From NCBI GenBank assembly GCA_001919865.1, contig MNIR01000058.1:47287-111286 (forward strand): 64,000 nucleotides of DNA, read 5' to 3'. This stretch comes from Gemmatimonadetes bacterium 13_1_20CM_4_69_16 (GTDB lineage Bacteria; Gemmatimonadota; Gemmatimonadetes; Gemmatimonadales; GWC2-71-9). The notes under the pieces were generated by a model, which ran no database searches, was not told the origin of the DNA, and saw nothing but the letters and a program-made list of their open reading frames with translations. The position numbers were made by a program, and so were the translations under genes. This document shows positions 28,372 through 29,550 of this stretch, in pieces (the first letter of the stretch is position 1; each line of letters opens with the position of its first letter).

Positions 28372-28749
28372 GCTGACAAACAGCTTACGACAGATGGGGA
28401 TGATTCTCAGTCAGGAGGTGCCAAATACTAGAGTAAAACTGTCGGGAATTCAAGCACGCTCGCCCAGGTCTGGTAATTCTCCAGGTTCACTTCTAACAGC
28501 CGGGCCGGAGCCATCAAGGCGACCAAGTCTTCAACCCTCCACCTAGAAACGTCCTTCGGGCGCTTGTTAAACGTTTAACATCCCGAGGCGCGTGGAGAAG
28601 GGCACCGCCTTTCGGTGCCGAGCCCTTGCTGTCCGTTACATTGCTTCGCGCGGCGCTTGAGTTCACGTGACATGGCCCCCAAGTGTAATCTGACTCACAC
28701 CATTACTGGCGATAACCGCGATGATCAGACACAACCTTGGATCTTTTAC

Positions 28750-28778
28750 TTGACACCGCGTCGGTATGACTATAAATA
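28750..28778 (+). promoter_or_regulatory. sigma-70-like promoter upstream of leader RNA/NYN gene
   Basis: TTGACA at 28750-28755 followed by TATAAATA at 28771-28778 (15-17 bp spacer depending on register). Confidence 0.6.
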
Positions 28779-28782
28779 TTGC

Positions 28783-28849
28783 CCTTACTCATCCCCGAAA
28801 CGGGCGCAAGCCTGCTAGGGTCCCCCCGGGTCACGATCCGGGGGTTTTT
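28783..28849 (+). ncRNA. candidate short structured leader/small RNA
   Basis: Between promoter-like sequence and intrinsic terminator; contains CCCGAAACGGG hairpin and GGC-GCAA-GCC GNRA-type mini hairpin, with CCCU/AGGG closing potential; boundaries inferred. Confidence 0.45.
28823..28849 (+). terminator. Rho-independent terminator in the NYN gene leader
   Basis: CCCCCGG-GTCACGAT-CCGGGGG-TTTTT perfect stem and U-tract. Confidence 0.85.
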
Positions 28850-28866
28850 ATTCCAGGGGCCCACTA

Positions 28867-29496
28867 GTGCCCAACCGCGTCTGCTTCCTCGTCGACGGCT
28901 TCAATGTCTACCACTCAATCATCGAGGCCCTAAAGATCAATCCGACCGCCTCGATGAAGTGGTTGGATTTCCAGGCTTTCTGCAGTTCTTTCCTCCCGTT
29001 GATCAGCCGAGACGCGACCCTGGAGAAGGTATTCTACTTCTCGGCATCGGCGGATTTTCGACCCGACAAGGCTGCCCGACACGCAATCCTTGTTGCCGCC
29101 CTTCGCTCAACCGGGGTTGCGGTCCAGCTCGGACGATTCAAGGAAAAGGACATCCGGTGCCCTAAGTGCAAGACCAACTTCACGCGTCATGAGGAGAAGG
29201 AAACCGATGTGGCCGTAGCCGTTAAGCTCCTCGAGCTACTTGCCGTGAATGCGTGCGAAACCGTCGTGCTTCTAACAGGCGACACAGACTTAGCACCTGC
29301 GATTCGCACGGCCAAGACGCTGTACCCCGATAAGCGGATCTGGGTGATCTTTCCATACAGCCGCCACAACGCAGAACTGAAGGCACTCGCTCATGGGACG
29401 ATCCAGGTCAAAGCCAAGAGGTATGTCGCCAATCAGCTTCCCAATCCCGTCAAGGTGTCCGACACCGAGTTGATCTGGAAGCCTACTGGCTGGTAA
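28867..29496 (+). CDS. NYN-domain (LabA/DUF88-like) putative ribonuclease with CxxC zinc-ribbon insert
   Basis: CFLVDGFNVYHSI; KEKDIRCPKCKTNFTRHEEKETDVAVAVKLLELLA; VVLLTGDTDLAPAI; GTG start with AGGGG RBS at 28855. Confidence 0.85.
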   Translation: MPNRVCFLVDGFNVYHSIIEALKINPTASMKWLDFQAFCSSFLPLISRDATLEKVFYFSASADFRPDKAARHAILVAALRSTGVAVQLGRFKEKDIRCPKCKTNFTRHEEKETDVAVAVKLLELLAVNACETVVLLTGDTDLAPAIRTAKTLYPDKRIWVIFPYSRHNAELKALAHGTIQVKAKRYVANQLPNPVKVSDTELIWKPTGW

Positions 29497-29550
29497 CTCG
29501 TTACCTCGCTACCGGCCGGATAGTAACCGCTGAAACGGGCCACCACTCGC

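Follow-up and report, generated by a model that had tools for sequence, protein, structure and literature searches.

Background

Type III toxin-antitoxin systems (ToxIN, CptIN, TenpIN and AbiQ) are built in the order promoter, small RNA, Rho-independent terminator and RNase gene, with one RNA and one RNase gene per system, and are scattered on chromosomes, plasmids and phages (PMC5086642). The criterion used to search for them was a toxin gene preceded by a terminator, itself preceded by an antitoxin RNA, and phages have escaped them through pseudo-ToxI copies (PMC5086642). A second point of comparison is HEC-09 (Hma-embedded candidate 09), which PADLOC lists as a single protein model and which one survey correlated with phage susceptibility (PMC12447246). 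Neither a demonstration of defence by HEC-09 nor an RNA linked to it was found in the published papers searched; searches of these papers on NYN proteins with an RNA antitoxin, sRNA or riboswitch returned nothing relevant. Among NYN proteins, the CRISPR-associated NYN of Bacteroides fragilis was shown to be a Mn-dependent RNase and proposed as an RNA trimming enzyme; its gene is adjacent to cas6 within a type III CRISPR locus, and it is not known to have a leader RNA (PMC11346440).

The locus described here shares the type III order and its pairing of one RNA with one RNase gene, and lies in a window of 64,000 nucleotides from Gemmatimonadetes bacterium 13_1_20CM_4_69_16 (contig MNIR01000058.1). 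The original prediction, made from the letters of the window, had proposed a promoter, a short structured RNA and a terminator before an NYN nuclease-like gene, in a layout resembling either ToxI-terminator-ToxN or a riboswitch-type attenuator. The results below point to a nuclease under the control of an RNA, a kind of system not yet described, in which the RNA most likely serves as antidote to a toxin. The insert, promoter, RNA elements, possible ribosome binding site and NYN gene described for the window are all on the + strand.

Results

Genomic context and NYN protein

The RNA and the NYN gene were carried on one insert of about 1.09 kb (28462-29548, with several bases of uncertainty at the borders) that separates an FTR1-like permease gene from acpS. 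The site was empty in the four congeners searched (4/4), in each of which the bases before 28468 and after 29549 were contiguous, which shows that the RNA and the NYN gene came in jointly on a single insert. The GC profile also set the insert apart (56% GC, vs 72% for the genome and neighbourhood). Nothing recognisable was found in it besides the RNA and the NYN gene, and the gene upstream of the RNA was transcribed away from it. The ten neighbouring genes of the window gave no PADLOC match, so that no defence genes adjoined the NYN gene there. The non-coding part of the insert also contained a perfect palindrome, TGTTAAACGTTTAACA, followed by a GGCACCGCCTTTCGGTGCC hairpin (28564-28625), possibly an operator or a remnant of another element.

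The NYN gene (28867-29496, GTG start, 209 aa) was confirmed by Pfam NYN (PF01936, E=1.4e-9, 39 bits vs a cutoff of 24.2). Its protein was a member of HEC-09 by profile (7.5e-47), as were all of the aligned relatives (71/71). Residues D10, D114, D139, D141 and E109-E110-K111 were invariant in 71 sequences, and the protein is predicted from its profiles, residues and model to be an NYN RNase with intact catalytic aspartates. The AlphaFold2 model (mean pLDDT 97) was nearest to the solved structures of VPA0982 (PDB 2qip, TM 0.70) and of the Marf1 NYN (TM 0.63, both by target length); these and the LabA/DUF88 NYN proteins differed by their low identity (10-18%), and to our knowledge none of them has a known RNA partner. 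Likeness to the B. fragilis NYN rests on fold class and residue spacing, its triad D13/D118/D143 being spaced nearly as D10/D114/D139 here (PMC11346440). The CxxC zinc ribbon of the original prediction was upheld as to its residues only: C98, C101 and H108 were conserved, with H108 invariant and C101 nearly so in a 64-sequence set, which fits a metal-binding insert, but Pfam zinc-ribbon matches stayed below threshold. A possible ribosome binding site (AGGGG, 28855-28859) was read from the sequence; across the family, a 4-base Shine-Dalgarno match preceded only 31 of 74 genes.

Promoter, extent and structure of the RNA

A sigma-70-like promoter (28751-28778), present as first proposed, combined TTGACA at 28751 with an A+T-rich -10 region in TATAAATA. 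Of 72 family loci, 57 had a TTGACA-like box, defined as a match at 5 of 6 positions or better, against an expectation of 11.5 from shuffles; the box lay at a median of 38 nt before the sequence UCAUCC, exactly the distance in the window. Given this spacing from the -35 box, the RNA should start at or just before UCAUCC, for a predicted length of about 60 nt. The covariance model R1 (see below) matched positions 28786-28852 with 53.3 bits, and the structured RNA was placed at 28786-28850.

The family consensus consisted of a single-stranded 5' end, UCAUCC (28789-28794 in the window, near-invariant columns in 95 RNAs), hairpin 1, and hairpin 2 acting as a terminator, with the start codon a median of 21 nt further on. 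In hairpin 1 (28794-28820), an internal loop separated an outer CCC/GGG helix from a GCAA tip (CGGGC-GCAA-GCCTG); the helix of this hairpin covaried in the 95 RNAs. The structured RNA initially proposed thus stood in modified form: CCCGAAACGGG and GGC-GCAA-GCC, taken at first for separate hairpins, formed a single one in both the minimum-energy and the homologous fold. A scan of 6 kb for terminator-like sites ranked hairpin 2 (28823-28844), with its T-run to about 28849, above all others. It showed 99.2% of its helix cells paired in the alignment and ended 17 bp before the GTG at 28867, where the original prediction had placed it. Folding of the leader alone exceeded chance expectation (z=-2.4).

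Covariation overwhelmingly supported this two-hairpin structure. A first alignment of 47 sequences (plain MAFFT) yielded 14 pairs; 96.2% of their cells were paired, and double changes occurred in 135 cells vs 34 in shuffles. The model R1, built from this stage, then collected 95 RNAs, in which 13 of the 14 pairs changed on both sides, 96.7% of cells were paired, and double-change cells numbered 312 vs 78 in shuffles; pairing fell to 31-57% when partners were slid as a control. The 95-RNA alignment was fitted to the model, and the plain-MAFFT alignment of 47 sequences gave the same result. Mutual information over all column pairs of the 95 RNAs recovered only the two hairpins, with no competing pairing. 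All strongly covarying pairs were nested within them and none crossed, leaving no pseudoknot signal, and no covarying antiterminator, as a mutually exclusive terminator/antiterminator of a riboswitch or attenuator would need, was found by this measure. No tandem repeats were found by TRF, in agreement with the earlier reading that no ToxI-like repeats were visible.

No Rfam 15 family matched the leader above its gathering threshold, either in the window or in eleven further loci. The best match, anti-hemB (22.8 bits vs a threshold of 49.5), and a sub-threshold match to NsiR1 were both rejected, as they aligned mainly on the terminator. A guide-RNA role was also discarded, the RNA having no variable spacer, and pairing of UCAUCC as an antisense seed with the NYN start codon (AUGA) was, by eye, inconsistent across loci.

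Linkage of the RNA to NYN genes

The RNA and the NYN gene form one module, a conclusion we regard as established. Eighty protein relatives were taken from one-per-species genomes, a near-duplicate and a truncated match being omitted from these, and 5' DNA was read for 78. A terminator-type hairpin stood just before the start codon in 76 of them; with few exceptions, another hairpin and, at the 5' end, a sequence resembling UCAUCC came ahead of it. This conservation is the decisive point for regarding the leader as a real feature, and it gave strong support to the ToxI-terminator-ToxN layout as anatomy; homologues without a conserved leader, the outcome that the original prediction had named as contrary to it, were limited to L074, a pseudogene, and L033. 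Of 86 family loci, 83 had a strong terminator no more than 70 nt upstream of the start, as did 18 of 27 distant NYN genes, compared with 12 of 225 neighbouring genes.

The same RNA type was common to NYN genes of more than twenty phyla. It tracked the NYN tree (4 changes vs 12.3 in shuffles) and the tree mixed phyla, as expected for a travelling pair; the module moves horizontally as a compact RNA-nuclease unit. A search of 298 genomes from the phylum with R1 produced 15 matches at E<1e-3, of which 12 were directly 5' of an NYN gene, including in genomes outside model building (G265, G298, G264, G073, G200, G112 and G041). Weaker matches in G082, G040 and G098 (E 0.002-0.007) were set aside as likely chance. 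The 49 genomes with NYN relatives contained 65 RNA matches, mostly exactly one per genome and at the NYN gene. Family flanks shared no constant partner gene, the RNA and NYN being the only linked genes, and held only scattered defence genes, with no defence-island context. Embedding in Hma or another defence locus, from which HEC-09 takes its name, was found neither among the ten window genes nor in these flanks.

Distant NYN clades that R1 did not match carried their own two-hairpin-terminator leaders. Loci of other NYN clades (L141-L147, L151 and L154) had a different two-hairpin leader, for example UCAACCCC, a hairpin, GCG, a GAAA-loop hairpin and TGCTTTT in L144-L145; these leaders are probably sister RNA families.

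RNA copies without an intact NYN gene

Nine RNA loci lacked NYN (L110/L207, L114, L121, L190, L194, L196 and L197) or kept only a short N-terminal stub of it (L192 and L202). RNAs without an intact NYN retained 11-14 of the 14 pairs, and 94% of pairs were kept in 15 orphan or extra RNA copies, vs 97% in the rest. Behind the RNA of L110/L207 lay an ORF that, by eye, resembled a transposase of IS4-like type; a swapped-in alternative effector was not recognised behind any orphan RNA, the others having eroded NYN starts or nothing. Single RNA units were present in nearly all loci, while L046 and L198 had tandem RNA copies before one NYN and L188 an RNA-NYN-RNA arrangement. The Thermoleophilia genome G356 (L188, L191 and L193) contained eight RNA copies, RNA-NYN-RNA arrays and NYN fragments, and looks as if modules multiply and decay in it.

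Only for the pseudogene L074 was no RNA found in the vicinity of the NYN. For the sole intact NYN without a 5' RNA, L033 from Truepera, a divergent copy of the RNA lay about 0.9 kb from the gene. Between the two, on the NYN strand, the Truepera locus carried an ORF (L200, 933-1592, -) that, by eye, is possibly of a DNA-binding type.

Viral contigs, screened by a pattern scan and then R1, provided two RNAs with no NYN on the same stretch. One (L241, 1480-1545, -, 60.2 bits) lay beside terminase genes and had TTGACA and TATAGT promoter boxes with 17 bp spacing; the other (L244, 1973-2033, +, 53.5 bits) lay beside portal and protease genes. Matches in two further viral loci, L327 and L300, were discounted as probably due to chance. 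The two phage RNAs are possible decoy antitoxins and look parallel to the pseudo-ToxI escape from type III systems, but they are few, and their contigs could instead be prophage or host debris.

Orphan, tandem, trans and phage copies together favour a diffusible RNA; they are not proof of inhibition. Loss of the gene before the RNA is partly expected by chance, since a 630-nt gene is a mutational target ten times larger than a 60-nt RNA, and most orphan RNAs share their genome with an intact module and so may be recent debris.

Discussion

The reading we favour, in which confidence and doubt are about equal, is a type III-like toxin-antitoxin or abortive-infection module whose terminated RNA would keep the NYN RNase in check, probably in the service of phage defence. 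We infer RNA excess, binding, inhibition, toxicity and phage defence in the following scheme. A strong promoter would make an RNA of about 60 nt composed of 5'-UCAUCC, hairpin 1 and hairpin 2, and hairpin 2 would end most transcripts, leaving the NYN gene to be expressed only by rare read-through. The RNA would accumulate in excess over the NYN RNase, bind it via its conserved single-stranded 5' end and hairpins, and hold it inactive, as ToxI does ToxN. Upon transcription shutdown or RNA degradation, as on phage infection, the RNA would be lost and the freed RNase would cut RNA until growth or infection stops. This toxin-antitoxin reading is strengthened by the RNA outliving NYN, with tandem, trans and phage-only copies, and by the match of every aligned relative to HEC-09, a candidate defence family. 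It is weakened by the absence of tandem repeats and of a pseudoknot, unlike known type III antitoxins.

Compared with type III systems, an RNA gene lies 5' of the putative toxin gene with a Rho-independent terminator between them here too, and the occurrences are likewise spread over chromosomes, plasmids and phages. The nuclease has an NYN/PIN-like rather than a ToxN fold (Pfam NYN; model nearest to VPA0982 and the Marf1 NYN), the RNA is one two-hairpin unit (doubled only in L046 and L198) where type III has pseudoknot repeats in tandem, and its conservation extends across the hairpin of the terminator. Because the ToxN/AbiQ fold, the repeat array and the pseudoknot were not found, the module was not filed as type III. 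A bolder version, which we hold only tentatively, is a pan-bacterial ribonucleoprotein immune system, absent from the literature searched, in which the 60-nt two-hairpin RNA would be the dedicated partner of the NYN RNase, at once sensor and lock, phages would carry the RNA alone as a decoy antidote, and the whole would form a new class beside type III, not a variant of it.

The fixed position of the RNA directly 5' of the gene, with the terminator close before the start codon, would also be expected of a cis-regulatory leader. Such a leader would be a terminator-attenuator or autoregulatory site with no role in trans, and its binding or cleavage by the NYN protein or a ligand would determine how far the gene's own mRNA is read through or translated; in several loci (e.g., L025), Shine-Dalgarno-like bases are confined to the 3' arm of hairpin 2. 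Attenuators and riboswitches likewise have a structured 5' leader ending in a terminator before a gene, but here no alternative fold covaries, no Rfam family matches, RNA copies occur without the gene, in tandem, divergent from it or alone in phage contigs, and the UCAUCC end followed by two stable hairpins resembles a finished RNA. The attenuator alternative raised by the original prediction is thereby weakened, and we consider a cis-regulatory leader fairly unlikely. A little more doubtful still is an RNA-cofactor nuclease, in which an active ribonucleoprotein for defence or RNA processing would need the RNA as a subunit or sensor and the RNA would not be an inhibitor. The conserved single-stranded 5' end and the RNA-trimming proposal for the CRISPR-associated NYN (PMC11346440) agree with it, as does the tracking of the NYN tree by RNA type, which any cognate pair would show; yet the RNA has no variable region able to act as a guide, and RNA-only loci, phage ones included, are easier to explain with an inhibitor.

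Explanations that separate the RNA from the nuclease fare worse. In overall appearance the RNA resembles a Rho-independent sRNA whose gene has a promoter of its own, and UCAUCC could be an mRNA-pairing seed in a small regulatory RNA that merely neighbours the NYN gene, but the linkage across more than twenty phyla and the joint insertion speak strongly against such independence, and Rfam matches were sub-threshold and mainly to terminators; we regard it as very improbable. Terminators being common between genes, the hairpin might simply have ended an upstream gene before an unrelated NYN gene. This is refuted by conservation: terminators are far rarer before neighbouring genes than before NYN genes, the upstream neighbour here is transcribed away, and structure-specific covariation extends to hairpin 1.

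HEC-09/NYN is now filed as a single-gene defence candidate. Should the true unit consist of both the RNA and the nuclease, clones of just the ORF would lack half of it, which could explain failed or toxic tests. The toxin-antitoxin reading, if true, would add an RNA-antitoxin-type system whose RNase fold is unrelated to that of ToxN, present in more than twenty phyla. As the RNA family has no Rfam match and its structure is backed by compensatory changes, the idea is directly testable, and the system is reachable in E. coli via distant relatives on 3.5-kb plasmids. Distant NYN homologues were found on enterobacterial plasmids of 3.5-4.2 kb with few other genes (L102, L103 and L104), hosted by Klebsiella, E. 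coli and Serratia. A hairpin and a terminator stood just before the NYN gene in two of them, L102 and L104, and the L104 form occurred in 12 of 5,426 E. coli genomes, always plasmid-borne.
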